A stretch of DNA of 64,000 nt from Aequoribacter fuscus (GTDB lineage: Bacteria; Pseudomonadota; Gammaproteobacteria; Pseudomonadales; Halieaceae). A model generated the notes under the pieces. That model ran no database searches and was not told the origin of the DNA. It saw only the letters and a program-made list of their open reading frames with translations. Positions 4,989 through 53,711 of the stretch are shown here, piece by piece. Numbering within the stretch: the stretch's first letter is position 1; the number at the start of each line of letters is the position of its first letter. Where the stretch lies: assembly GCF_009910365.1 (NCBI RefSeq), contig NZ_CP036423.1, forward strand, positions 2,666,001 to 2,730,000, written 5' to 3'. Both the position numbers and the translations under genes were made by a program.

Positions 4989-5021
4989 GCAAAAAAAAAC
5001 TTTATCCGTTACTCTGCCAGC

Positions 5022-5051
5022 ATTATAGGCATGCCTTAAGCATAAACCCAA
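5022..5051 (-). promoter_or_regulatory. Sigma-70 promoter of nnr-tsaE-amiB-mutL
   Basis: A perfect leftward -10 box TATAAT occupies 5022-5027. A partial -35 (TTGGGT) lies 18 bp upstream, overlapping the first codons region of divergent queG. The predicted start near 5015 gives a leader of roughly 27 nt to the nnr ATG at 4988. The prediction rests on sequence alone. Confidence 0.65.
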
Positions 5052-5055
5052 TCCC

Positions 5056-6114
5056 GTGACCGACCTCAATTTACATTCGCTTAGCGAACAACTCCAAACC
5101 TGGGCTCACGACTTGGGCTTTGCCGCCATGGGTATTAGCGACATCGACCTCAAGGAACACCCCAATTACCTGCAGCGCTGGCTCGATAAGGGCTATCACG
5201 GCACCATGAACTTTATGGCCGCACACGGCGAGAAGCGCTGGCGTCCAGAGTTGCTCGAACCGGGCACTCTGCGCGTCATATCCCTCCGCATGGATTACCT
5301 ACCCGAGAACACCCATGCTCTTGACGTATTGGAAGAGCCCAATAAAGGCTACATCGCCCGCTACACCTTGGGTCGCGATTATCACAAACTGGTGCGCAAA
5401 CGCTTAGCGACACTGGCCAAACGCCTGCAGGATGCCGCGGGTGGACACCATCGAGCCTTCGTAGACAGCGCGCCGGTATTGGAGCGTGCGATTGCTGAAC
5501 AGGCGGGACTGGGTTGGATTGGCAAAAACACCATGCTCATCAACGACAAGGCCGGCTCGTGGTTCTTTCTAGGCGAAATCTACACCGACCTGCCGCTACC
5601 GGTATCGGCCCCAAAAACCGAGAAGCACTGCGGGTCGTGCACTGCCTGCTTAGACATTTGCCCAACACAAGCCTTTGTCGGCCCCTTTGAGTTAGACGCT
5701 CGTAAATGCATTTCGTATCTAACCATCGAGCACAAAGGCAGTATTGATACCGCGCTTCGCTCGAAAATCGGCAACCGAATTTTTGGCTGCGACGATTGCC
5801 AACTGTTTTGCCCATGGAATAAATTCGCCAAACCCACCCAAGAGTCGGACTTTAAGCCACGCCACAGCTTAGACAATATCGATTTGGTCGAGCTATTTTT
5901 GTGGGATGAGCACACCTACCTCGATCGCACCGAGGGCTCAGCACTGCGACGCATCGGCTATGAACGCTGGTTGCGCAACATCGCAGTGGCTTTGGGCAAT
6001 GCCCCTAGCACCATTCCCGTTATTGAGGCACTGAAATTACGTTTGTCGTTTCCCAGCGAGTTAGTGCAGGAGCATGTTGTTTGGGCGCTGGAGCAACATA
6101 ACGTTGATGTGTAA
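5056..6114 (+). CDS. queG: Epoxyqueuosine reductase QueG
   Basis: QueG performs the last step of queuosine synthesis, reducing epoxyqueuosine to queuosine in the wobble position of GUN tRNAs, with cobalamin and two 4Fe-4S clusters. The 352-aa protein shows the first ferredoxin-like motif CGSCTACLDICPTQAF (about residue 192), the second-cluster segment FGCDDCQLFCPWN (about 245), and the conserved ERAIAEQAGLGWIGKNTM region. The start is GTG at 5056; no better ATG lies upstream because the intergenic region holds the divergent nnr promoter. The gene is divergent from nnr, as in many gammaproteobacteria. A repeat element begins only 14 nt after its stop. Confidence 0.96.
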   Translation: MTDLNLHSLSEQLQTWAHDLGFAAMGISDIDLKEHPNYLQRWLDKGYHGTMNFMAAHGEKRWRPELLEPGTLRVISLRMDYLPENTHALDVLEEPNKGYIARYTLGRDYHKLVRKRLATLAKRLQDAAGGHHRAFVDSAPVLERAIAEQAGLGWIGKNTMLINDKAGSWFFLGEIYTDLPLPVSAPKTEKHCGSCTACLDICPTQAFVGPFELDARKCISYLTIEHKGSIDTALRSKIGNRIFGCDDCQLFCPWNKFAKPTQESDFKPRHSLDNIDLVELFLWDEHTYLDRTEGSALRRIGYERWLRNIAVALGNAPSTIPVIEALKLRLSFPSELVQEHVVWALEQHNVDV

Positions 6115-6128
6115 TCGCGAGTCACACA

Positions 6129-6302
6129 GAGCACTGTAACCGGGCCTAGCCCTACAGGTTCCCTCTCGAGCCTGCGGTCGACTGGCTCGCACACGCCGTT
6201 GTCTCGAACACCACAATGCCAGCAACACCCGCATCGCTGTGACGACCATCAGCGAAATATCGCTCCCATTGGCACTCAAAGAAACCTCTAGCGCTCTCCC
6301 TC
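6129..6302 (-). repeat. 174-bp dispersed element, copy A (inverted relative to copy B)
   Basis: Reading the minus strand, this stretch aligns without gaps to 11352-11525. I count about 24 mismatches in 174 positions, about 86% identity. The outer parts are nearly identical (first 55 bp with one change, last roughly 55 bp with one change), while the central 60 bp holds about 22 of the differences. The ends carry GAG...CTC. Imperfect subterminal inverted repeats lie inside (GCTAGAGGTTTC against CCTACAGGTTCC). Short palindromes include AGCGATATTTCGCT and GGGCCTAGCCC. An open frame crosses both copies, but the substitutions are not enriched at third codon positions, so I treat the element as non-coding. 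It fills the gap after queG. The family is unknown to me. Confidence 0.85.
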
Positions 6303-6340
6303 ACTTAGTGGGTGCGTGATATTTGATGCTACGTAGAAGT

Positions 6341-6388
6341 TTCCGTGGTTCCGTGGTTCCGTGGTTCCGTGGTTCCGTGGTTCCGTGG
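6341..6388 (+). repeat. Tandem 8-bp repeat, TTCCGTGG x6
   Basis: Six perfect head-to-tail copies of TTCCGTGG are followed by a partial TTC. The array lies in the 371-bp gap between queG and cysH, about 98 bp upstream of the chosen cysH start, and is not in any credible reading frame. Perfect short arrays like this are prone to slipped-strand change, so copy number may vary between strains and change the spacing upstream of cysH. Apart from this array and repeat copy A, I see nothing else definite in the gap. Confidence 0.95.
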
Positions 6389-6485
6389 TTCACCTACAGT
6401 TGCATAAGCATAGACACAAACAGTATTTCACAGACGCCGTGCCTATTCGTATCCTGCACCGCATCACATCATGTGGGACCTTGCC

Positions 6486-7121
6486 ATGATCTTAAGCCAA
6501 CAAGAAATCGAGGAAGCCAATCATCGTTTGCGCAACGCAGCGCCAACAGACGTGATTCGCTGGGCCGTTGGCTTGGGCAGCTCCACCATTGCGTCTACCA
6601 GCTTTGGCGTTAATGCGGGCGCACTGCTGCATATGATCGCGCAGACCACGCCCAAATTGCCGATCGTGTGGGTCGACTCCGGCTATAACGTCGCCGATAC
6701 CTATCGAGTGGCTGATACCTTAACGCAACAATTACGCTTGAACCTGCACGTGTACAGCCCAGCGATGACCGCAGAGCGCCGCAATGCGATTCGCGGCGGC
6801 ATACCGACCCTAGACGAGGCGGAACGCCATGCAGCGTTTACGCGCGAAGTCAAACTCGAGCCTTTCGAGCGAGCACTTGCAGAGCACAAGCCCAAAGTGT
6901 GGATTAGCGGAATCCGACGCGAAGAGACCGATCACCGCAAGTCATTGGATATCGTTTCTGTGGATGCGCGAGGCATCCTAAAAATCGCGCCCGTGTTTTA
7001 TTGGACCGAACAGCAAATACACCACTACATGAGAGAACACGCCATTCCCTCATGCAAACACTATTTTGATCCAACGAAAGTCTTGAACGGCCGCGAGTGC
7101 GGACTGCACACCGCCGCTTAG
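6486..7121 (+). CDS. cysH: Phosphoadenylyl-sulfate (PAPS) reductase CysH
   Basis: CysH reduces PAPS to sulfite with thioredoxin in assimilatory sulfate reduction. The product of about 211 aa has the adenine-nucleotide hydrolase fold. It shows the VDSGYNVADTYRVAD region, WISGIRREETDHR and the C-terminal catalytic ECGLH motif (NGRECGLH). It lacks the paired cysteines that bind a 4Fe-4S cluster in APS reductases, so it should use PAPS. An ATG five codons upstream (6471) is also in frame; I prefer 6486 because GGGACC precedes it at about the right spacing. The gene stands alone, without cysIJ or cysDN nearby. The 8-bp tandem array lies upstream. Confidence 0.93.
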   Translation: MILSQQEIEEANHRLRNAAPTDVIRWAVGLGSSTIASTSFGVNAGALLHMIAQTTPKLPIVWVDSGYNVADTYRVADTLTQQLRLNLHVYSPAMTAERRNAIRGGIPTLDEAERHAAFTREVKLEPFERALAEHKPKVWISGIRREETDHRKSLDIVSVDARGILKIAPVFYWTEQQIHHYMREHAIPSCKHYFDPTKVLNGRECGLHTAA

Positions 7122-7123
7122 CC

Positions 7124-7255
7124 TTAGCCCATTATCGCGCCGACAGTGATCCCTAGGGCGATAGTGAACAAGAAAAAGCCCGCGACCATTTTAAACAGCG
7201 ATTTCATGTCTTTCGCGTCTTGCGTTTGATCGTCTTGGGTCATGTGATTAGCCAT
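7124..7255 (-). CDS. Small single-pass membrane protein, 43 aa
   Basis: This reading frame is absent from longer-ORF predictions. It encodes a polar N-terminus rich in Asp, Gln and Lys (MANHMTQDDQTQDAKDMKS) and then a single hydrophobic helix (FFLFTIALGITVGAIMG) reaching the C-terminus. An AGGGA ribosome-binding site lies about 7 nt before the ATG. It converges on cysH with only 2 nt between the stop codons. The polar head and C-terminal helix suggest an inner-membrane protein with its tail anchored in the membrane. I do not recognise the family. The good ribosome-binding site and the sharp polar/hydrophobic division are the reasons to believe it. Confidence 0.7.
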   Translation of the reverse strand: MANHMTQDDQTQDAKDMKSLFKMVAGFFLFTIALGITVGAIMG

Positions 7256-7357
7256 AAGATTTCCCTTTTTATTGATTTTAATTCCATGCACATGGCGTAA
7301 AATGCCCCATCATTGATTTTACTGCTTTGACCTAAATCAAAGCCGCAGTGAGGAGCC

Positions 7358-7819
7358 ATGTTTACCGCTCAAGATGACCTTAAGCTCGCTCTTCGGGGCC
7401 TGCTTGATCAAGAATACGATGTCACCGCCAACAGTGCCAACTTTGGCTCGTTGCTGTATCACAGTCTGCCCGATCTAAACTGGGTCGGTTTTTATTGGTT
7501 GCAAGACAACGAGCTTGTCCTGGGTGCCTTTCAAGGCAAACCCGCCTGCGTGCGCATTCCCCTTGGACGCGGCGTCTGTGGAACCGCTGCGGCAACCCAA
7601 GAACCCCAAATCGTGGCGGATGTGCACGCATTCCCGGGCCATATTGCCTGCGATGCCGACTCTCGATCTGAGCTCGTGTTACCCGTGATCGTCAACAACA
7701 GCTTACTGGGCGTGCTTGATCTAGACAGCCCCATTGCAAACCGCTTTGACAGCCAAACCGTAACATTGGTATCGGATTTATTATCGATTTGGTGTGCGCA
7801 CCAGTACGCGAATATTTAA
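7358..7819 (+). CDS. msrC: Free methionine-(R)-sulfoxide reductase (GAF domain)
   Basis: This cytosolic GAF-fold enzyme reduces free Met-R-sulfoxide and forms part of oxidative damage repair. The 153-aa length and the sequence WVGFYWL, IPLGRGVCGTAA, HIACDADSRSELVLPV and LGVLDLDSP are diagnostic. The three family cysteines are present: the one in KPACVR, the one in GVCG, and the catalytic one in IACD. The ATG at 7358 is preceded by GAGGAG. The gene is followed after 10 nt by asnS and is probably co-transcribed with it. Confidence 0.93.
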   Translation: MFTAQDDLKLALRGLLDQEYDVTANSANFGSLLYHSLPDLNWVGFYWLQDNELVLGAFQGKPACVRIPLGRGVCGTAAATQEPQIVADVHAFPGHIACDADSRSELVLPVIVNNSLLGVLDLDSPIANRFDSQTVTLVSDLLSIWCAHQYANI

Positions 7820-7829
7820 GGATTAAACC

Positions 7830-9236
7830 ATGAGTTCTTCAACTTCACCTCAAGCCGTTAAGTCACTTCTTGCAGCAGACGACCAGGTAGGGACTATCGT
7901 CCGAGTTCAGGGTTGGCTGCGCAGCAAGCGCGATTCCAAAGCGGGCATCTCCTTTTTAGCGATTCACGATGGCTCGTGCTTCGACACCATCCAGGCCGTC
8001 GTACCTGCCGAGCTCGACAACTACGAATCTGAGGTTAAAAAGTTATCCACTGGATGCGCGGTGGACGTCTGCGGCACTTTGGTGCAGTCCGAAGGCAAAG
8101 GCCAAGCGCTGGAAATACAGGCAACGCAGGTCATCGTTGTTGGCGACGTAGACGATCCCGAAGGCTACCCCATTGCCAAAAAACGCCACACCTTCGAATA
8201 CCTGCGCACCCAAGCGCATTTGCGCCCCCGCACCAATACCTTTGGCGCCATCACTCGGGTACGCACCACGCTCGCCAACGCGATTCATCAGTTTTTCTTT
8301 GATCATGGGTTTCACTGGATCAACACGCCCATTATTACGGGCAGCGACTGCGAAGGCGCAGGCGAGTTGTTCCGCGTAAGCACCTTGGATATGGTCAACA
8401 CCCCTAAGAATGCGCAGGGTCAGGTCGACTACAAACAGGACTTTTTCGAGCAAGAAGCCTTTTTAACCGTGTCAGGGCAGCTCGAGGTCGAGTCGTACTG
8501 CTTAGCCATGTCCAAAGTCTATACCTTTGGTCCGACGTTCAGAGCCGAGAACTCTAACACCAGCCGCCACCTAGCCGAGTTTTGGATGATCGAACCCGAA
8601 GTGGCTTTTGCTAACTTAGCCGACAACGCCGACCTAGCCGAAGCACTGTTAAAGCACGTATTCACTCGCGTGATGAACGAACGCGAAGACGACATGGCCT
8701 TCTTTAACCAGCGCATCGACACCACGGTGCTCGAGCGACTGACCAATGTTATCGAGCAACCCTTCGAGCGCATCGATTACACCGACGCCATAAACATATT
8801 GGAAAACTGCGGCCAGAAATTCGAGTTCCCCGTCAGCTGGGGCATTGATATGGCGTCCGAGCACGAACGCTATCTAGCGGAAAAACACGTAGGGCGCCCC
8901 GTCGTTGTGATGAACTATCCCAAAGATATTAAAGCCTTTTATATGCGTTTGAACGATGACGAAAAAACCGTGGCAGCGATGGATGTCTTAGCACCCGGCA
9001 TTGGCGAAATCATCGGCGGTAGCCAGCGCGAAGAGCGCCTCGATGTGCTGGACTCGCGCATGGACGAGACGATGCGAGAACACTTGTGGTGGTACCGAGA
9101 TTTACGCCGCTACGGCACGGTGCCACACGCTGGCTTCGGGTTGGGTTTTGAGCGTTTGCTGAACTACATTACCGGCATGGAGAACGTGCGCGACGCCATC
9201 CCCTTCCCTCGAACACCCGGCAACGCGCACTTCTAA
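7830..9236 (+). CDS. asnS: Asparaginyl-tRNA synthetase
   Basis: This class IIb synthetase charges tRNA-Asn. The 468-aa protein has an N-terminal OB-fold anticodon-binding domain ([14 protein letters not shown]) and a catalytic core with motif 2 ([21 protein letters not shown]) and motif 3 ([13 protein letters not shown]). Its length matches the bacterial family. An AAGGA site lies before the ATG at 7830. It follows msrC by 10 nt. A hairpin separates it from the convergent phosphomannomutase gene. Confidence 0.98.
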
Positions 9237-9255
9237 GAGCGGCCTAAACCCTGCG

Positions 9256-9281
9256 GGTCACCAGCGCCCTGATTGGTGACC
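9256..9281. terminator. Hairpin between convergent asnS and phosphomannomutase genes
   Basis: Perfect 8-bp arms GGTCACCA and TGGTGACC flank a 10-nt loop in the 48-bp gap between two convergent stop codons. The position fits a bidirectional terminator. There is no clear T-tract on either side, so it may instead be a transcript-end stabiliser or a Rho-dependent end. Confidence 0.5.
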
Positions 9282-9284
9282 TCG

Positions 9285-10700
9285 CTACAACTGACCAACC
9301 GCAAAAGCCAGGGCTTGAGCGTTGACCTCTGCGGCGCGTTCAACCGACCTCGCTTCCGAGTAGCACCGCAGTTCGGGCGCATTACCTGACTGGCGAAAAT
9401 GCACGATCACGTTATCTTCAAAGGTCAGGCGACAACCATCCGTCAAGTCCGTTGCGATCAGCTCACCCAAGCTCAAAGTCTCTGCCAACTCAAACGGTAG
9501 TCTTGCCATTAAGTCGATAAAGGCTTGCCCGCGCTCGGGCACCACCCCCTTCACGCGATCGCTCGCCGTAAAAATAGCGGGCAATTGAGCATCCAAGTCG
9601 GCAACCGAGCAGGCTTTTTCACGGCACTCGCGCATCACCGCCAGCAGCGGCAACACCGCATCACGCGTTGCCAGAGGCGCCAAGTCCTTGCCATCGATTT
9701 TGATGGCAGATGCCGTTAAAAATCCGCCGTTTGCCTCATAACCCACCACCGACTGATAGCCTGATGTAAGCGCTTGCATACCCTCAATCACATAGGGTGA
9801 TCCAATTTTTGTCCTTTCGACTCGATCAAAAGCACCGCTTTCACTGACCACAGAATTTGAGCTCACCGGTGTTACCACAGCATCCGCACCGAGAGCTTTG
9901 GCACACAAAACGCCCAGACGATCACCTCGCAACCACTGCCCCTTCGCGTCACCTATCAAGGGGCGGTCGGCATCACCATCGGTAGAGAATAAGACATCGA
10001 AGTCGTATTCACTGGCCCAGACTTTGGCGCGCTCATGATCTTCGCGACTGACCGCCTCGGTATCAATCGGCACAAATTGGTCGGTGCGCCCCAAAGCCAG
10101 AACGCTGGCACCCAAACGCTGAAAAAGGTCAGCAAACAAATCGCGTCCGACACTGGAGTGTTGATAGATCGCGACTGTGCGGCCGTCTAAACACCCAGCA
10201 TAACAATCTACGTAGCGCTGACAGTAAGCGTCGTACGCGGCCGTATTCGCGAGTGGCAACTCAGTGCTCAACCTCGCTGGCAAAGTGACGGGGGCATGAT
10301 TAATGGCTTGCTCATCCGCTTTGGTGATTTCGCCACTCGCCGTATAAAACTTTATTCCGTTACGATCGAAGGGAATATGCGAGCCCGTGACCACGATGGC
10401 AGGAAAGCCCGAAACACCCGCGTAATAAGCGATCGCAGGCGTTGGCAAGGCACCTACGTAATCGACATCGACACCTAAATCTTCAGCCGCTTTCGCGCAG
10501 GCGCTAGCAATGCTCGGGCTTGAATCACGCAAGTCATGCCCCAGCACCACAGTGCTCGGTTTATCCACCACAGCCGTCAAAAACGCGTAAGCAAACCCGT
10601 AAACCACCTCATCTGTTAAATCGCTGACTAACCCGCGCACACCGCTGGTACCGAACTTAACGTCTTTAGACTGGGTTAACTGTAAAGTTGTTTGTGTCAC
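9285..10700 (-). CDS. Phosphomannomutase / phosphoglucomutase family enzyme
   Basis: This is an alpha-D-phosphohexomutase that interconverts hexose 6- and 1-phosphates, feeding GDP-mannose or other sugar nucleotides. It opens with KFGTSGVRGL. The phosphoserine loop is VVTGSHIPFDRNG, the metal loop is DGDADRP and the sugar-binding loop is EANGGF. A C-terminal phosphate-binding domain follows (RQSGNAPELRCYSEA). Its 471-aa length is typical. The start is GTG, with GGAG upstream. It lies 18 nt downstream of the rfaH-like gene on the same strand, so the pair is probably one operon linking an antiterminator to polysaccharide precursor supply. Whether mannose or glucose phosphate is preferred cannot be read from the sequence. 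Confidence 0.88.
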   Translation of the reverse strand: MTQTTLQLTQSKDVKFGTSGVRGLVSDLTDEVVYGFAYAFLTAVVDKPSTVVLGHDLRDSSPSIASACAKAAEDLGVDVDYVGALPTPAIAYYAGVSGFPAIVVTGSHIPFDRNGIKFYTASGEITKADEQAINHAPVTLPARLSTELPLANTAAYDAYCQRYVDCYAGCLDGRTVAIYQHSSVGRDLFADLFQRLGASVLALGRTDQFVPIDTEAVSREDHERAKVWASEYDFDVLFSTDGDADRPLIGDAKGQWLRGDRLGVLCAKALGADAVVTPVSSNSVVSESGAFDRVERTKIGSPYVIEGMQALTSGYQSVVGYEANGGFLTASAIKIDGKDLAPLATRDAVLPLLAVMRECREKACSVADLDAQLPAIFTASDRVKGVVPERGQAFIDLMARLPFELAETLSLGELIATDLTDGCRLTFEDNVIVHFRQSGNAPELRCYSEARSVERAAEVNAQALAFAVGQL

Positions 10701-10718
10701 GCAGAACTCCGCACGAGT

Positions 10719-11225
10719 TTACATTTGAATGGTATCGCCAATCATTGAGCGCTCGACCACAATGCGCGAGGCACGGCCCAGCAACTCAATGAATAAATAA
10801 GCGCGCTCTTCGTCTTTACTCATGTCAAACACCCCAGCCAGACCCGCAAAGGGCCCTTGCAAGATCTCGACTTTATCGCCTTTTTTGTGGGGCCAATCCG
10901 ATTCGTTTTTAGCGCCTAGGGTTGGGTCCTGCTGCACCTGAAGAAACTCGACGACCTCATCGGGAACAGGGATGATATCTTGACCAAAACGCACCAAGTT
11001 AAAGATGCCCACGGTCGACCTTACCGGTGCTAAGTCATCGGTGCCATAGTCGACATCAATAAACAGATATCGGGGGAACAAAGGCGACACGACCAATTGC
11101 CACTTACCTCGAACGCGCTTGCGCTGTTGCAGCTTAGGCAAAAACACGCGATAGCCTTGGCGCGAAAGATTAAGCTCAGCGGCATCTTCTTGCTTGGGTT
11201 TTGTTTGCACCACTAACCAGGTCAC
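10719..11225 (-). CDS. rfaH: RfaH-like NusG-family transcription antiterminator
   Basis: RfaH binds paused RNA polymerase at ops sites and reduces termination in long surface-polysaccharide operons. The product of about 168 aa has the NusG N-terminal domain (TWLVVQTKPKQEDAAELNL, then LFPRYLFIDVDY and VRFGQDIIPVPDEVVEFL) and a KOW-containing C-terminal domain (KKGDKVEILQGPFAGLAGVF). I start it at the GTG at 11225, which gives the usual RfaH N-terminus and sits 25 nt after a predicted transcription start. A frame open to 11450 would run through the promoter palindrome and repeat copy B, so that extension is not real. Telling RfaH from other NusG paralogues is by overall resemblance only. Confidence 0.82.
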   Translation of the reverse strand: MTWLVVQTKPKQEDAAELNLSRQGYRVFLPKLQQRKRVRGKWQLVVSPLFPRYLFIDVDYGTDDLAPVRSTVGIFNLVRFGQDIIPVPDEVVEFLQVQQDPTLGAKNESDWPHKKGDKVEILQGPFAGLAGVFDMSKDEERAYLFIELLGRASRIVVERSMIGDTIQM

Positions 11226-11256
11226 GCGATTAGGCCTTGTCTTAGAAAACGACGCT

Positions 11257-11300
11257 ATTGTACGCGATTTACACGACATCGGACATTTTGAAAATGTCCG
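11257..11300 (-). promoter_or_regulatory. rfaH promoter with perfect 10-bp-arm palindrome
   Basis: A leftward -10 box TACAAT covers 11257-11262, predicting a start near 11250. No good -35 is present. Instead 11280-11300 is a 21-bp palindrome with arms CGGACATTTT and AAAATGTCCG around a single central G. Its centre lies about 40 bp upstream of the predicted start, the position of a class II activator site that replaces the -35. On the plus strand the palindrome is followed by TTTTG, so a weak terminator is an alternative reading. Confidence 0.6.
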
Positions 11301-11351
11301 TTTTGTAATCTCGTGCACATCACAGCACAAACCGTCGGACAACCTCGATAC

Positions 11352-11525
11352 GAGGGAGAGCGCTAGAGGTTTCTTTGAGTGGCAATGGGAGCGATATTTC
11401 GCTGATTGCATTCCCGGTAATGCAGGTGTTGCCAGCACGCTGGTGTTCACAGCAACAGCGCGTGAAAGCCAGTCGACCGCAGGCTCGAGAAGGAACCTGT
11501 AGGGCTAGGCCCGGTTACAGTGCTC
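11352..11525 (+). repeat. 174-bp dispersed element, copy B
   Basis: This is the partner of the element at 6129-6302, in opposite orientation and of exactly equal length. Imperfect subterminal inverted repeats lie at 11362-11379 and 11484-11503. It occupies most of the 408-bp divergent gap between the rfaH-like gene and the thioesterase gene, 51 bp beyond the rfaH palindrome. The remainder of that gap holds the rfaH promoter on the left, and about 108 bp before the thioesterase start in which I see no clear motif. No target-site duplication is convincing around either copy. Confidence 0.85.
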
Positions 11526-11633
11526 CGACCAACAGCCCAACAGCAGAGCTACCCCCAAATGGAGGAAGCGCCAACGTCGCACACTCATGGACATGCTGAT
11601 ACTCTGTGCCACTTCCACCGAAAGGACACAGGC

Positions 11634-12242
11634 GTGAAAGAAAACCCAAACTTCACCAGCGAGCAACGTCAAGCCTTACAGCACGTTGCGCAAGAGCTTC
11701 GGCTTGTGCTCGAGCACATGACTACACTCAATGGTACTGCCGACGAACTCGACGCTATCGCCGATCAAGTCAAGGCGCTCAGCGACGCTATGGCGCCCAT
11801 GACGGGCAACAAAGCGTTAGAGCATTTTGCTTTGGAGTGGGGGGACGATTTAAATTCACCCCTGCCCATGAGCCCCATCACCGGACGGTACCACCCTGTT
11901 GCCCCACCCGTTGAATTAAGCATGGTGGGCAACACTCTTGTAGGAACGGTCACCTTGAATAAGGTCTACGAAGGCGGCCCTGGCTGGGTGCACGGCTCTT
12001 GGATTGCGGCAATCTACGATCAGTTATTGGCGTTTGCGGGAATATTTAATAAAACCGGCGGCCCGACTGCGAGTTTAACGGTCGACTTCATGAAGCCCAC
12101 CCCAATTAATACACCGTTGCGCTTCGAAGCCACGATTGATTCTGTGGCCGATAAAAAGATCTACATGAGCGGCCGCTGTTATTGCGAGGGGCAATTAGTG
12201 ACAAAGTGTGAAGCCTTATTTATTCAACAAAGCTTTCGCTAG
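11634..12242 (+). CDS. PaaI-family hotdog-fold thioesterase
   Basis: This is a predicted cytosolic acyl-CoA or aryl-CoA thioesterase. About 200 residues: the N-terminal 70 are helical and charged, and the rest is a hotdog domain. That domain has the family signature around GGPGWVHGSWIAAIYDQLLA (active-site helix) and the sheet LTVDFMKPTPINTPLRFEA. The GTG at 11634 is preceded by AAAGGA at good spacing; an upstream extension to 11520 would overlap repeat copy B and is rejected. The substrate is unknown. A second, shorter thioesterase of the same superfamily lies at 13172-13588. Confidence 0.82.
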   Translation: MKENPNFTSEQRQALQHVAQELRLVLEHMTTLNGTADELDAIADQVKALSDAMAPMTGNKALEHFALEWGDDLNSPLPMSPITGRYHPVAPPVELSMVGNTLVGTVTLNKVYEGGPGWVHGSWIAAIYDQLLAFAGIFNKTGGPTASLTVDFMKPTPINTPLRFEATIDSVADKKIYMSGRCYCEGQLVTKCEALFIQQSFR

Positions 12243-12275
12243 TACGGGCGCGCACTCGACGCGCCCATCATAGGT

Positions 12276-12689
12276 TTAATTAGAAATTTCGCAACTCTCG
12301 CGTGAATTGCCAGCGTCAAAATACTCTTGAAAAACTTTCGGGGTGCGACCGCGACCCGTCCAAAGGTATTCTTCCCCATTCACAACCAAACGGTATTTTG
12401 GCGCTACTGCACCGCGTGCTTTGGATTTTGCTTTTTTTCCGCCGCGCTTTGGACTGGGACTCAAATCTTCGGGGGTAAGCCCCGACTGCGCCAGTAAGGC
12501 TTGAATGCGCTCAATATTCGCCTGTTTTTCTTTTTCGGCTTTTTCCGCTTCTTTCTGTTCAAGCTCGGATTTTACGCTTTGTAATATCCCAATTAATTTA
12601 TCAACTTCGTGCAGCGCCAAACGTTTTGCTTCGGCTTTTGCTTTGGCTTTAGATTTTACGTAAATATCAAAGGCAGACGCTTTGGCCAC
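12276..12689 (-). CDS. H-NS family nucleoid-associated protein
   Basis: H-NS-type proteins bind AT-rich DNA and silence transcription. The 137-aa protein has an N-terminal coiled-coil oligomerisation region with many Lys, Ala and Glu residues (about residues 10-70), a basic linker (PKRGGKKAKSKARG), and the C-terminal DNA-binding domain YRLVVNGEEYLWTGRGRTPKV, in which GRGRTP is the AT-hook-like loop. Its own upstream region is strikingly AT-rich, which would suit autoregulation. It is convergent with the thioesterase gene at 11634. Confidence 0.9.
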   Translation of the reverse strand: MAKASAFDIYVKSKAKAKAEAKRLALHEVDKLIGILQSVKSELEQKEAEKAEKEKQANIERIQALLAQSGLTPEDLSPSPKRGGKKAKSKARGAVAPKYRLVVNGEEYLWTGRGRTPKVFQEYFDAGNSRESCEISN

Positions 12690-12760
12690 GGGATATCTCC
12701 ATTAACTTATTTATTTAACGGAGTGTAAATAAAAATGAATTTTTGGTAAAGAAATGGTGA

Positions 12761-12783
12761 GCTTTGATTAAATTAATCAAAGC
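12761..12783. promoter_or_regulatory. Perfect 23-bp palindrome between H-NS and VanZ genes
   Basis: Arms GCTTTGATTAA and TTAATCAAAGC (11 bp each) surround one central A. It lies about 72 bp upstream of the hns-like start and 22 bp after the VanZ stop. It could be an operator of the hns-like promoter, or the stem of a terminator for the VanZ operon. On the VanZ strand no T-tract follows it, which favours the operator reading. Confidence 0.55.
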
Positions 12784-12804
12784 GTCTTTTCAACACCGAC
12801 TATT

Positions 12805-13167
12805 TTATTGAAATAAACTTCGTCGCAGCCTAACCAAAAATAACGCCGTGATAATACCCAGACTATCGGCCAACCAATCGCCCCATTCAGGTGCTCGAGT
12901 CTCGGTTAATGCCTGAAAGAACTCGATAAAAGCACCATAAATAAGCAATCCCCCAATGACGTACAGAATATGTTTGGGGTAAGACCAATAACCCAGAGTT
13001 GCCAGCACAAAAAATGCCAGTGCATGCATCACTTTATCAGAGAATAACATCACATCTTGGACCATGTTGGATGGTAGTAACGCCAAGGTCAACAGACCGG
13101 CCAAGGCCACCCAAAATAGAATGCGTAAATGGCTTAGCGACACGAAGGGGAATACGGGTGTTTTCAT
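12805..13167 (-). CDS. VanZ-like family membrane protein
   Basis: This 120-aa integral membrane protein has about four hydrophobic segments: ILFWVALAGLLTLALL, VMHALAFFVLATLGYW, ILYVIGGLLIYGAFIEFFQ and LADSLGIITALFLV. The VanZ-like hallmarks are the DKVMHALAFFVLA segment and the later IEFFQALTETRAPEWGDWLADSLG, which carries the conserved FQ...R..xxxDxxAxxxG pattern. I start at the ATG at 13167, because longer forms would overlap the upstream thioesterase gene whose stop is at 13172. It is the last gene of the MipA-MlaC-like-thioesterase-VanZ run. The function of VanZ-like proteins outside teicoplanin resistance is not known. Confidence 0.85.
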   Translation of the reverse strand: MKTPVFPFVSLSHLRILFWVALAGLLTLALLPSNMVQDVMLFSDKVMHALAFFVLATLGYWSYPKHILYVIGGLLIYGAFIEFFQALTETRAPEWGDWLADSLGIITALFLVRLRRSLFQ

Positions 13168-13171
13168 GGAC

Positions 13172-13588
13172 CTACCGATTGGGTGGAATAGCGTAAGTAC
13201 CGACGCCATGTGCCACCATGTCGTCATCGCCTTGGCTGTAAATCGCCACACTGCCCACAGCCTGCGTTTTACCCACCTTGTGTAGATCGCACACAGCCCT
13301 TAAATCTCTGTTAGCGGCGGGCTTGCGCAAGAAATTTATGGTGAGATTCGTCGTCACAGCAAGAGGAACAAGACCTATTGTTGCCAGTACCGCCACGTAC
13401 AGTGCGGTATCGGCAAGCTCCATCATGGTAGGCCCAGAGACAGTCCCACCAGGACGCAAATCTGAATCGCCAACCAAACGAATAAGCTCACAGTGATTGT
13501 GCGAGGCACTTACAATACGGCTTTTAAACCCAGGGAATTCCGTATTTAAAAAATCTTGGAGCTGATTTGCAGATAAGGTTGAAGGCAA
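13172..13588 (-). CDS. PaaI-family hotdog thioesterase (short)
   Basis: This 138-aa predicted acyl-CoA thioesterase has the hotdog central helix GGTVSGPTMMELADTALYVAVLATIG and the following strand LAVTTNLTINFLRKPAANRDLRAVCDL, which match the PaaI/YdiI class. The start is TTG at 13588, preceded by AAGGA at good spacing. It begins 9 nt after the MlaC-like stop and ends 4 nt before the VanZ-like start, so co-transcription is likely. The substrate cannot be predicted. Confidence 0.85.
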   Translation of the reverse strand: MPSTLSANQLQDFLNTEFPGFKSRIVSASHNHCELIRLVGDSDLRPGGTVSGPTMMELADTALYVAVLATIGLVPLAVTTNLTINFLRKPAANRDLRAVCDLHKVGKTQAVGSVAIYSQGDDDMVAHGVGTYAIPPNR

Positions 13589-13597
13589 AATAATTCC

Positions 13598-14302
13598 TTA
13601 ATTCACGCAGGCAGTTTTAATATAACTCGGCATCATTGCTTTATTGCTGCCGCCCTCACAAAACTGACGAAAAAATCGATGGTTTTTTTCATTCAAGGCC
13701 AAAATCAAACCCAGCCAATCGCCTTTTTTCGCATACTTGTGATAAAAACTTTTTTTCCAATTGCTGTAGCGAATATTAGCGACTTCCATGTCGCGAATAA
13801 ATACTTGATCATCACGTATTAATACTATGTATCGTAACGCGACAGTGACACCCAACGGCCCTTTTACTTTTGCATTAATATTGGGCGCTTCTTGCGTTAA
13901 ATGCATTTCAAGATCTTTTATGGTTTTTTGATTAACGTCGTAATCCAGTAAAGCCTCGAACACATAGCGGGTTAGCGTTACCCCAACCGCATTGACTAGC
14001 TGTGACCGCAAGGGTTCTTTGAGTGCTTCATTGTGGGTTCCCAGCAATAGTGACAGCAGATCATCCAAAGCCCAAAACGCTAAAAATGGCCCCGCCACAT
14101 CGCGTTCTATCTGAGTCGCCCAGGCCAAATCTTTGTTTACAGAACTCACCAAAGCCAGCTCGAGCGTTTTGTTCCATAGGCGATTAAACTCGGCTTCGGT
14201 GCGACCCACCAGAGCCTCCTCAACATCTATTGAGCTGGAAGCAAATGCGGGTAGCACAAGTAATGCGACGGCAAGCGCAGCTGGCGGCAACAAACGCATC
14301 AT
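13598..14302 (-). CDS. MlaC/Ttg2D-like periplasmic protein
   Basis: The 234-aa product has a signal peptide (MRLLPPAALAVALLVLPAFA) and a mature domain that resembles MlaC, the periplasmic phospholipid shuttle, only in outline. Points of likeness are a helical N-terminal half and the strand pattern ending VFIRDMEVANIRYSNWKKSF..., followed by a KKGDWLGLILAL helix like the C-terminal helix of MlaC. Here it has no mlaFEDB neighbours. Instead it follows a MipA/OmpV outer-membrane protein by 11 nt, suggesting a joint envelope role. The first two codons are both ATG. The MlaC assignment is by eye and could be wrong. Confidence 0.55.
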   Translation of the reverse strand: MMRLLPPAALAVALLVLPAFASSSIDVEEALVGRTEAEFNRLWNKTLELALVSSVNKDLAWATQIERDVAGPFLAFWALDDLLSLLLGTHNEALKEPLRSQLVNAVGVTLTRYVFEALLDYDVNQKTIKDLEMHLTQEAPNINAKVKGPLGVTVALRYIVLIRDDQVFIRDMEVANIRYSNWKKSFYHKYAKKGDWLGLILALNEKNHRFFRQFCEGGSNKAMMPSYIKTACVN

Positions 14303-14313
14303 CAGGTGCTGCG

Positions 14314-15165
14314 CTAATCAGAGTCGGCGTATTTAAAACGCCATATCGCACCGACACCAAATAAGACATAACTGTCATCGACAAATAAAGGGCTGTCGGT
14401 ATTTTTCGCAGACCCTAAATCCATGTAGCGTGCGTAGGCCAGAAAAGACCAAGCGCCAACATCGTATTGAATCGTCGAGGACAAACGGTAGCCAACCAAA
14501 CCGCTTTTCGCTCGATACTGGGGACGCGCTAGGGTCGCAAACGGTTGCGACACACCATAAAGCAACTGATTGTATTCTTGGTCGGCAGTGTAGGCGCCTA
14601 AGTCGATCTCAAACTCTGTGCTCTGCGTACGCCACTCGTAGTGCACACGAGGGTCGAATACCCAGCCCACCGGTTCGATACCATTAGACGGATCGAGCTC
14701 CAATGCGGCGCGAAGCGGCAGGTGTAACTCGAGGGTGTTATTACCCCACTGGGCTAATTTAAGTTCTAACTCTGGACCCACCTCTAAAATGAGTTCCAAG
14801 TCGTTCATACCCTCTCGGAGAATATCGTCGTCATTATTGACGGGCAGCGAGCCACTAACGCTGATATCGAGCTTGGCGCGATCACTTTTAAAGAGCGAGG
14901 CCTGAATGCCGTCGCGGTCTATACTCAGCCAATCACCCTCGTACTCTAGGTAGGGCAAGGGCGCGACTAAGGTGTCACTTTGAGGCGAGCCTGGGTAGTG
15001 CGGATAGTCGACAGCGGCAATACCTACACCTAACGTGAGGTCACTCCACAGCTCTTTCCAACCTGGGTAGTCAGGTGAATCCGCAGTGGATGCGTCATCG
15101 GCCGGGGCATTCGCAGCCAATAGGCCGCCAAATACCACCGCGATAATTGTACGTAAAATCAGCAT
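14314..15165 (-). CDS. MipA/OmpV family outer-membrane protein
   Basis: The 283-aa product has a signal peptide (ILRTIIAVVFGGLLAANA) and a beta-barrel of alternating hydrophobic strands. It shows MipA/OmpV features: the early LTLGVGIAAVDYPHYPGSPQ segment, VAPLPYLEYEGDWLSID, the RDGIQASLF strand, and a late YRLSSTIQYDV...FLAYARYMDLG repeat, ending in IWRFKY. Family members are porin-like or scaffold murein enzymes; no specific role can be read here. It is the first gene of a four-gene leftward run. Confidence 0.87.
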   Translation of the reverse strand: MLILRTIIAVVFGGLLAANAPADDASTADSPDYPGWKELWSDLTLGVGIAAVDYPHYPGSPQSDTLVAPLPYLEYEGDWLSIDRDGIQASLFKSDRAKLDISVSGSLPVNNDDDILREGMNDLELILEVGPELELKLAQWGNNTLELHLPLRAALELDPSNGIEPVGWVFDPRVHYEWRTQSTEFEIDLGAYTADQEYNQLLYGVSQPFATLARPQYRAKSGLVGYRLSSTIQYDVGAWSFLAYARYMDLGSAKNTDSPLFVDDSYVLFGVGAIWRFKYADSD

Positions 15166-15215
15166 AACTACCCTCGAATAAATACTGAACAGTGCTTCAG
15201 CGATGTTGCATGAAC

Positions 15216-15980
15216 TTACGTTAAAAGACCACCGTCAACGACTATGCATTCGCCGTTCGTATAGCTCGACGCATCCGAGCAAAGGTAGAGTAAGGTCCCA
15301 GCCATTTCTTGTGGTTCAGCGTGCCGACCCAGCGGAATTTGCTGAATAGCCATCTGGTAGATGTCATCGTTGGTAAATAAAGCACCGGCAAATTTTGTTT
15401 TGGTTAATCCGGGTAACAAGGCATTACAGCGAATACCCAAGGGGCCGCATTCTTTTGCAAAGGTCTTAGTCATATTGACTACCGCCGCTTTAGTGATCGA
15501 GTAAATGCCCTGCATAGGACCGGGCTGAATCGCGTTGATCGAGGCGGTATTGACGATGACACCACTACCTTGGTCACGCATAATTTTTCCGGCCTCAACC
15601 GACATAAAGAAATAGCCGCGGATGTTCACATCAACCGTTTTTTGAAAGGCCCCGAGATCAGTGTCCAGGACATGGCCAAAATAAGGGTTTGTGGCGGCGT
15701 TATTCACGCAGATATCTAGGCGACCAAACTCCGTTTTAATACGCTCAATAAGCTGCTCAATTTGAGCCAGATCGCCAATATTACACGCGATTGCAATCGC
15801 CTCGCCGCCAGCGTCACGGATCTCTTGCGCTACGCGCTCGCAATCATCAATCTTTCGGCTCGAGACAATCAGTCTGGCGCCATACTCAGCTAAGCATTTT
15901 GCCGCCTCTTCGCCAATACCTCGACTTGCGCCGCTCACCAAAGCGACACGTCCACTTAAATCAAATAGGTTTTTATACAT
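15216..15980 (-). CDS. Short-chain dehydrogenase/reductase (SDR)
   Basis: This 254-aa classical SDR is an NAD(P)-dependent oxidoreductase. The cofactor loop is SGASRGIGEEAAK, the NNAA motif is VNNAATNPYFG, the catalytic Ser is in VNTASINAIQ and the YxxxK motif is YSITKAAV. The C-terminal VVDGGLLT is typical. Its ATG lies within the end of the MFS gene (8-nt overlap), and that gene in turn overlaps ubiX. The substrate is unknown. Confidence 0.92.
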   Translation of the reverse strand: MYKNLFDLSGRVALVSGASRGIGEEAAKCLAEYGARLIVSSRKIDDCERVAQEIRDAGGEAIAIACNIGDLAQIEQLIERIKTEFGRLDICVNNAATNPYFGHVLDTDLGAFQKTVDVNIRGYFFMSVEAGKIMRDQGSGVIVNTASINAIQPGPMQGIYSITKAAVVNMTKTFAKECGPLGIRCNALLPGLTKTKFAGALFTNDDIYQMAIQQIPLGRHAEPQEMAGTLLYLCSDASSYTNGECIVVDGGLLT

Positions 15981-17190
15981 TGTTTATCCTTAATGACTCT
16001 GAATCGACTTGGGCAACGCGATAAGCCCAGTGTACGTAATATAACGACGCCACAACCAGTACCGCCCACGCCGCGGGGTAACCATAATGCGTCACGGTAA
16101 ATCCTACCACCAACGGACCCACCACGCGGCCCCAGGCAGACGCGGACCCGGTCGCGCCCATCATTTGCCCCCGATGCTTAGCATCGGCACGCTTAGACGC
16201 CAAAGAGTTTAAAATAGGAAAACAAAAATTAGCGCCCGTCATGGCAATAAAAAAGGCCAAGGGAATAGCGACATGACCACTGGCCACCACAGCCAAACAT
16301 AAGCCAAAAACCAGCGCTAACAGCGCCGTTCGCATCAAAGGGATTTCGCCAAAACGATCGATCAAACGACCGATCAAGCCACCTTGAATGATCGCCATTA
16401 TCAGACCTTGGATACCCAACACCATACCCACTTCCTTAGGGGTGTAGCCCAGGCTATCGGCCGTCCAAATCGGCAACAGATAGGTGATGGAGCTAATCAC
16501 AGCCGAATGCGTTGTAAACTGGCTGACAAAACGCAAATTTTGAGTGCGCCGTAAAAATACGATAGAGCTGCCAAAGCGATACGGTTCTGAGCGCCGACGA
16601 TGCTCCGCTTGGGCCTGGGCTTGCGCAGACACGGTCTCTTGTAAAAACAAGCCAGCGGCACCTAGGGCCAACAGTGACATCGCAGCGGCGACTAAGCAGG
16701 GCAACACAAAACTACCGGTGTCACCGCTTAACAAACCGCCAAGAAACGGGCCGACCACTAAGCCGAGTCCGAAGGCGGCTCCCAACTTTCCCATGGCGCT
16801 GGCCCGATTCTCGAGGCTAGTTAAATCAGCCATCATCGCCGCGGCCACCGGTAAGTTGCCGGCCATCAGCCCCGCAAATGCGCGCGCGGCAAAAATCATC
16901 CACAAAGCATGAGCAAAGGCCAGAGCAATATACGATACAGCGGCACCTAACAAACATAGCATTAGCGTGCGCTTGCGCCCCCAGCGATCGGAGAGTCGTC
17001 CCCAAAATGGCGACATCGCACCTGAGCAGACAGCGTACACAACGATGATTAGGGCAATATCAAATTTAGTCGCACCCAAGGTTGGCGACAAAAAGGGCAA
17101 GATCGGGATGACAATACCAAAGCCGATAAGATCAAGTAGCGCAACACAAAAAAGCAAAAAAATCGGCAGTTGTTTGCGGGTACTACTCAC
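15973..17190 (-). CDS. MFS transporter, TetA-like drug/proton antiporter family
   Basis: This 405-aa inner-membrane transporter has about twelve predicted helices. Motif A is present as GRLSDRWGRKRTLML after helix 2, and the motif C-like GAAFGLGLVVGPFLGGLLSG lies in helix 5, as in drug:H+ antiporters of the TetA/DHA1 type. The opening VALLDLIGFGIVIPILPFL also resembles TetA. The GTG start overlaps the ubiX stop by 8 nt, and the stop region overlaps the SDR start. A role in drug export is inference from the family. Confidence 0.88.
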   Translation of the reverse strand: MSSTRKQLPIFLLFCVALLDLIGFGIVIPILPFLSPTLGATKFDIALIIVVYAVCSGAMSPFWGRLSDRWGRKRTLMLCLLGAAVSYIALAFAHALWMIFAARAFAGLMAGNLPVAAAMMADLTSLENRASAMGKLGAAFGLGLVVGPFLGGLLSGDTGSFVLPCLVAAAMSLLALGAAGLFLQETVSAQAQAQAEHRRRSEPYRFGSSIVFLRRTQNLRFVSQFTTHSAVISSITYLLPIWTADSLGYTPKEVGMVLGIQGLIMAIIQGGLIGRLIDRFGEIPLMRTALLALVFGLCLAVVASGHVAIPLAFFIAMTGANFCFPILNSLASKRADAKHRGQMMGATGSASAWGRVVGPLVVGFTVTHYGYPAAWAVLVVASLYYVHWAYRVAQVDSESLRINNV

Positions 17191-45384: not shown

Positions 45385-45561
45385 GGATTCCTGGCATATT
45401 CGCCAGATATTTGTGTCCGCGAGCCGATATCAGCAAATCAGGGGCAAGCTCGCAGCGTCGGTGTGCACGTCCGCTCGACGGAAAGCCTAAAGCACTGCAG
45501 TAAGTCCCGCCTTGAACCGTTGGGTTCAAGGGCGCCCTTATCAGCGGTATGTTGGGAGTCC
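45385..45561 (+). ncRNA. ssrS: 6S RNA
   Basis: 6S RNA mimics an open promoter and binds sigma-70 RNA polymerase in stationary phase. The 177-nt region lies between zapA and ygfA, the conserved ssrS place. It contains the hallmark GAGCCGATAT, the hairpin CCTTGAACC-GTT-GGGTTCAAGG, and ends that pair (GGATTCC with GGAGTCC) to close the long rod. Overall length and order of elements match E. coli 6S RNA. The 45562-45711 stretch after it shows no gene and is probably the joint 6S-ygfA transcript. Confidence 0.92.
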
Positions 45562-45711
45562 TTTTCACCCCTCGACCTTTTATGTCCACGTTCTATGGTC
45601 TGTCGCGTTAAGCACAGATACACTCACAGATCGTAGCAACACAGTAATCCGCCACCTGCGCACGTTCTGCCTGGAGGCGATAGTGCACGACTAGCTCGAA
45701 CTCGATGAAAT

Positions 45712-53685: not shown

Positions 53686-53711
53686 AAAGCCCGCCACTGG
53701 CGGGCTTTTTT
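53686..53711 (+). terminator. Intrinsic terminator of glnA
   Basis: AAAGCCCGCC-ACT-GGCGGGCTTTTTT, 19 nt after the glnA stop: a strong stem with a six-T tract. It separates glnA from the DUF4124 gene. Confidence 0.93.

Follow-up and report, generated by a model that had tools for sequence, protein, structure and literature searches.

Divergent promoters that overlap and share one operator are a general arrangement in bacteria. Class II activators bind at a site centred near −41 of a promoter whose −35 region is weak or absent. For rfaH itself, control through sigma-N and sigma-S was reported in Salmonella (PMC3459932). The locus analyzed here, located in a 64-kb stretch of DNA (referred to as the window, the whole stretch that was analyzed), resembles enterobacterial rfaH regulation (RpoN/RpoS, growth phase) in that an rfaH-type gene would be under transcriptional control. 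It differs from the Salmonella gene in that a search of the 121-bp promoter region in three genomes revealed no sigma-54 core (GG-N10-GC).

Like divergent shared-operator systems, the locus has one palindrome between two outward promoter-like pairs, lying across both −35 regions. Unlike such systems, no classical repressor or activator gene was present among the 14 neighboring proteins searched (5056-17190), the site is single in the genome, and one side opens with a duplicated non-coding element. The sole DNA-binding candidate among the 14 neighbors is an H-NS-family gene (12276-12689); the rfaH-like protein is an elongation factor by family. The features of the locus are as follows.

9285..10700, minus strand: phosphomannomutase/phosphoglucomutase-family gene (Pfam PGM_PMM domains I-IV)
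10719..11225, minus strand: rfaH-like NusG-family gene, GTG start, 168 aa (TIGR01955 140.7 bits; PDB RfaH E 9.5e-17)
11257..11286, minus strand: predicted rfaH promoter, ATGTCC (11286-11281), 18 nt, TACAAT (11262-11257), start about 11250 (consensus match)
11280..11300, no strand: proposed operator, perfect palindrome CGGACATTTT-G-AAAATGTCCG (same place in G002 with 1 change and in G003 with 2 changes; 19/21 columns invariant in three genomes)
11280..11309, plus strand: predicted divergent promoter, CGGACA (11280-11285), 18 nt, TGTAAT (11304-11309), start about 11316 (consensus match)
11340..11526, plus strand: element A, a 187-bp block that is conserved and non-coding, either a candidate structured RNA or a leader (conservation, model match, folding)
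11593..11637, plus strand: short upstream frame of 14 codons, ending in a TGA that overlaps the GTG start of the thioesterase gene (length and overlap unchanged in G002 and G003)
11634..12242, plus strand: 4HBT-family thioesterase gene (Pfam PF03061 E 3.3e-05)
6128..6314, minus strand: element B, paralogue of A, between queG-type and cysH-type genes (86% identity to A over 174 bases)

The earlier note had described a near-perfect 21-bp palindrome centred some 40 bp ahead of the start that TACAAT predicts. Both statements were confirmed, and the palindrome is in fact perfect: the arms, CGGACATTTT (11280-11289) and AAAATGTCCG (11291-11300), are 100% complementary around a 1-nt centre, and allowing a single mismatched pair extends the symmetry to 25 bp. 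As TACAAT on the minus strand at 11262-11257 places the rfaH start at about 11250, the centre of the palindrome (11290) falls at about −40. Perfect palindromes whose arms reach at least 10, separated by a spacer of 0-1, occur three times in the window (11280, 12761, and 53686), against a mean of 0.17 per 64 kb in 12 first-order Markov copies. Taken alone, the palindrome at 11280 is thus unusual, not unique, and its case is carried by location and conservation. The palindrome at 53686 is terminator-like, judged by its G+C-rich arms. Another, GCTTTGATTAAATTAATCAAAGC (12761-12783), lies upstream of the H-NS-family gene; used as a control, it was not kept in any aligned relative (G001, G002, and G003).

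We compared the upstream regions of 18 rfaH-like loci, 400 bp each, four from the same genus (G000-G003) and 14 from other genera. The palindrome was observed within 400 bp upstream of rfaH at three of the four same-genus loci (G000, G002, and G003, with 0, 1, and 2 mismatches). The best match upstream of rfaH in G001 had at least 8 mismatches of 20, as had those at all 14 loci of other genera, from which the palindrome is absent. Conservation in relatives, which the earlier note had expected, therefore held at two of the three other same-genus loci examined, but failed in G001 and outside the genus. The most economical account, an operator between two divergent promoters or else a −35 region common to them, concerns a site seen in one genus only, and only three closely related genomes carry the palindrome. 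A fifth genome of the genus, G004, which is 73% complete and stands outside the sample of rfaH loci compared, gave no match to the palindrome, the element, or the thioesterase.

In G000, G002, and G003, 19 of the 21 palindrome columns are invariant, versus 285/409 over the whole region. Among the 401 stretches of 21 columns, 54 (that of the palindrome being one) have at least 19 invariant columns, so column conservation alone is modest evidence. A wider search allowing up to 3 mismatches found the palindrome in 7/58 genomes, own included, versus 6/58 with a match to the reversed control. Three of the seven matches are linked to rfaH (own, G002, and G003), and the other four are 3-mismatch matches inside open frames. 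In the class sample, up to 2 mismatches gave 2/369 genomes, own included, the second match being inside an open frame; the reversed control matched 4 genomes.

In G001, which is without the palindrome, rfaH and the thioesterase gene are still divergent neighbors, and element A is also missing at that locus. The palindrome and element A are accordingly present or absent together at the four same-genus loci, and rfaH is found at all four. The 400 bp upstream of the two nearest thioesterase orthologues without element A, those of G001 and G021, contain no such palindrome either.

The start codon of the rfaH-like gene (GTG, 11225-11223) was chosen by comparing relatives. RfaH is the best family match of its product, which scores only 50.4 bits with NusG and resembles solved RfaH chains in sequence. 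Its score with the RfaH equivalog TIGR01955 is 3.8 bits below the curated cut-off of 144.5, and the four genus orthologues score 139.2-142.8 bits. A phosphomannomutase-family gene follows 18 bp after rfaH, as the earlier note had indicated in placing the palindrome upstream of such a gene, and the two likely share an operon.

The two promoter-like pairs that overlap the palindrome each recur unchanged in the three genomes. Of the sigma-70 consensus letters, the rfaH pair matches 8/12, with other minus-strand pairs in these genomes reaching 8 or 9 of 12. The hexamer paired with TACAAT, at a spacing of 18, matches only 3/6 consensus letters, and the reported lack of a −35 is thus correct as regards a good one. 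With a centre at about −40 from the predicted start and a weak −35, the palindrome may have the geometry of a class II activator site. On the opposite strand, a pair that the earlier note had missed, CGGACA-18-TGTAAT, matches 9/12 letters, its −35-like hexamer being likewise weak (4/6), and 12 of the 13 columns at 11301-11313 are invariant in the three genomes. In shuffled sequence, the promoter scan gives pairs of 9/12 at a rate of 0.5 per 800 bp. For the locus itself, it listed another plus-strand pair, TTTACA-16-GAAAAT, the first hexamer of which is different in each relative. Both −35-like hexamers occupy the rfaH-proximal arm of the palindrome, on opposite strands.

From these sequence features, we propose with moderate confidence that the palindrome is a single-locus operator common to two divergent promoters. 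A dimeric transcription factor would bind it as DNA within the overlapping −35 regions. The minus-strand promoter would drive rfaH and the phosphomannomutase gene, and the plus-strand promoter would drive a leader containing element A and then the thioesterase gene. Because the two predicted −35 hexamers share one arm, on opposite strands, RNA polymerase could engage only one of the promoters at any moment. Bound at about −40 of rfaH, the factor could activate that promoter; the same factor, at about −26 of the opposite promoter, would block polymerase there. We infer the promoter activity, the protein binding, and the signs of regulation in this scheme. The sequence does not tell an activator from a repressor, and nothing computed here distinguishes the sign. 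A role at the level of DNA is argued by the predicted starts, which leave the palindrome in neither transcript. Perfect symmetry within a divergent intergenic region also counts in favor of an operator.

A possible, though less probable, explanation is that only the rfaH-proximal arm is functional, as a pair of overlapping −35 hexamers, its symmetry being partly coincidental and no factor being bound. The proximal arm is invariant in 10/10 columns and the distal arm in 8/10; all three substitutions of the relatives (G002 and G003) are in the distal arm, where each disrupts the symmetry with no compensating change. This distribution counts against an operator, as it is also expected if only the −35 hexamers are selected, and the lack of a second site in the genome suits the same explanation. 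The restriction of the palindrome to three close relatives and the nature of the promoters, consensus matches of 8 and 9 letters of 12, also weigh against the operator. On the other hand, perfect 10-bp arms at this spacing are rare in the Markov copies, and G002 keeps the symmetric 17-bp core, GACATTTTGAAAATGTC, unaltered, with one letter changed in G003. The weakness of both −35 hexamers suggests help from a factor. The survival of the core and these weak hexamers are the reasons why we prefer the two-sided operator to a mere pair of −35 hexamers.

The earlier note had proposed an activator dedicated to rfaH, which would act from about −40, the opposite side having no role. Several parts of this proposal stand, namely a site resembling an operator at the position typical of an activator, the lack of a good −35, and partial conservation. 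It is also in keeping with the −10 hexamer being TACAAT instead of TATAAT, and with G001, which is without the palindrome, having a full TATAAT upstream of rfaH. The part that fares poorly is the exclusive link to rfaH: an opposite promoter-like pair, equally conserved, overlaps the site and uses the same arm, and the palindrome tracks element A across the four same-genus loci, all of which have rfaH. We consider a one-sided activator improbable.

The earlier note had also suggested a genome-wide search for the palindrome to define a regulon. The genome (3.1 Mb, single contig) contains no second site with up to 3 mismatches to the 20-base or the 18-base version, and a 16-base core with up to 2 mismatches was found at 3 places, itself included, versus 2 for the reversed control. 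No further site thus rises above the control level. Regulon operators have copies at other promoters, often that of the regulator's own gene; no such copy was found for this one, and consequently no regulon emerged and no factor or autoregulated gene can be linked to the palindrome.

Control of surface polysaccharide operons by the antiterminator, as the earlier note envisaged, was likewise not supported. We searched for GGCGGTAGCNT, the E. coli-type ops consensus, and obtained 9 ops-like matches, fewer than the 19 of the reversed control and all inside open reading frames of at least 110 codons; these counts apply to the E. coli-type consensus, and this clade may use another signal. Elements of that type, expected in the leaders of RfaH target operons, were therefore not found there, again with the reservation that the RfaH relative of the clade may recognize another. 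Literature searches with the letters of the palindrome returned, among the matches listed, only a 9-letter term in unrelated contexts, and searches on rfaH regulation and on Halieaceae with small RNA gave nothing on this site among the matches listed.

It is very unlikely that the palindrome is an RNA hairpin serving as a plus-strand intrinsic terminator, with the stem followed by TTTTGT. The terminator scan does report 9 pairs, a loop of 3, and a T-rich tail. However, 2 pairs of the stem are lost in G003 and 1 is lost in G002, there is no plus-strand gene terminating shortly before the site (the listed frame that runs across it, 11194-11502, is a mechanical ORF), and the scan gives 2 such sites in total versus a shuffle average of 1.0. 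Least credible of all is a remnant of GGACA repeats of the phage type (sites of a replication protein, for example), because although 4 of the 10 viral contigs with an exact GGACATTTTNAAAATGTCC have several GGACA/TGTCC repeats around it, the remaining 6 carry it inside one homologous protein-coding frame, the single further CGGACA nearby (11336-11341) is not conserved in G002 or G003 and forms no repeat array, and none of the 14 neighboring proteins (5056-17190) matches a phage family in Pfam.

Under the preferred explanation of a shared operator, the plus-strand transcript would carry element A in its leader. The conservation of this element and the existence of its paralogue B, neither of which the earlier note had remarked on, were observed directly. 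The 386-bp block containing A has 80% DNA identity in G002 and G003, and by DNA it was found in 3/140 genomes of the family, all of the same genus. The covariance model R1 scores element A at 207 bits, A being one of the sequences from which the model was built. It found both elements in G000 and G002, found element A in G003, and gave no match in G001 or G004. The two B copies reported in G002 are identical on either side of 100 N, and were treated as an assembly artefact and counted as one. In the order sample, the model matched 1/293 genomes, namely our own, and none of the other 292, with strict filters that lose weak matches. A scan of contigs with an 18-mer of the element gave 41 places, at which the model was strong for 3 loci (two assemblies), weak for 3 (E 0.14-0.44), and without a match for the rest. 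Contigs carrying element A include Halieaceae bacterium LH.11 and Gammaproteobacteria bacterium Ww597. No viral contig had the 18-mer. Separately, in viral contigs L098, L101, L103, and L104, GGACATTTTNAAAATGTCC is found among GGACA/TGTCC repeats, perhaps arrays of binding sites for a phage protein.

Several identities of A and B were ruled out. The own genome holds two copies only, which excludes a widely dispersed repeat, and a search of plasmids yielded no match to the 386-bp block, which excludes a plasmid-borne origin. No tRNA or tmRNA was found in 5000-13000. Searches against Rfam gave nothing for B at values up to E 10 and, for the A region, four rows, all below the gathering score (best E 0.8); a catalogued RNA was thereby rejected. 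Like 6S RNA (RF00013), A and B are non-coding, intergenic, and near 180-190 nt in length. Unlike it, they match no Rfam family, and the genome has a separate 6S RNA gene (45385-45562, 90 bits), which rules out this identity as well.

The evidence that A and B form a structured RNA was mixed, and we regard them as a weakly supported candidate. Folding was somewhat more stable than that of shuffles, with z values of −2.12 for A, −1.83 for B, and −2.60 for the opposite strand of A. A consensus energy as low was reached in 2/100 column shuffles on either strand, and the structure conservation index was reached by 13 and 17 of 100. As shuffles attain the index on both strands, neither strand is favored and structure conservation is unsupported, leaving RNA as a candidate only. 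The covariation term was unfavorable (+2.61), with both-sided changes in 2/55 pairs. A hairpin at the start of A has a perfect 5-bp stem whose letters differ in the three A copies (CCTCG/CGAGG, CCCTC/GAGGG, and CCCTT/AAGGG). Its register is shifted by one in G002, and the stem is imperfect in B of G000; B of G002 lies outside this comparison.

Element B is flanked by genes with QueG_DUF1730 and PAPS_reduct domains, and no such palindrome is present upstream of it. Just upstream of B, at 6341-6391, is a tandem array of the 8-bp unit TTCCGTGG, with 6.4 copies and 100% matches. G002 has a similar tandem array with an altered unit. Downstream of A, the thioesterase orthologue is divergent from rfaH in G001, G002, and G003. 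The overlap of the 14-codon frame with the thioesterase start (GTGA or TTGA in three genomes) suggests possible translational coupling.

A more elaborate and speculative model, which we consider rather unlikely to hold in full, extends the shared operator to a switch. A factor at the palindrome would allocate polymerase either to the antiterminator operon or to the RNA/thioesterase transcript, and the two would be expressed in opposition. A and B would represent a duplicated regulatory RNA of this genus, with A divergent from rfaH and with B, about 5 kb away and lacking the palindrome, supplying the RNA independently. If only the −35 hexamers matter, the locus would be an ordinary pair of overlapping promoters. 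If the shared operator is real, it would constitute a small, concrete, and testable switch before an RfaH-type antiterminator outside enterobacteria, and would draw attention to a duplicated non-coding element that is seen here in one genus and belongs to no Rfam family.
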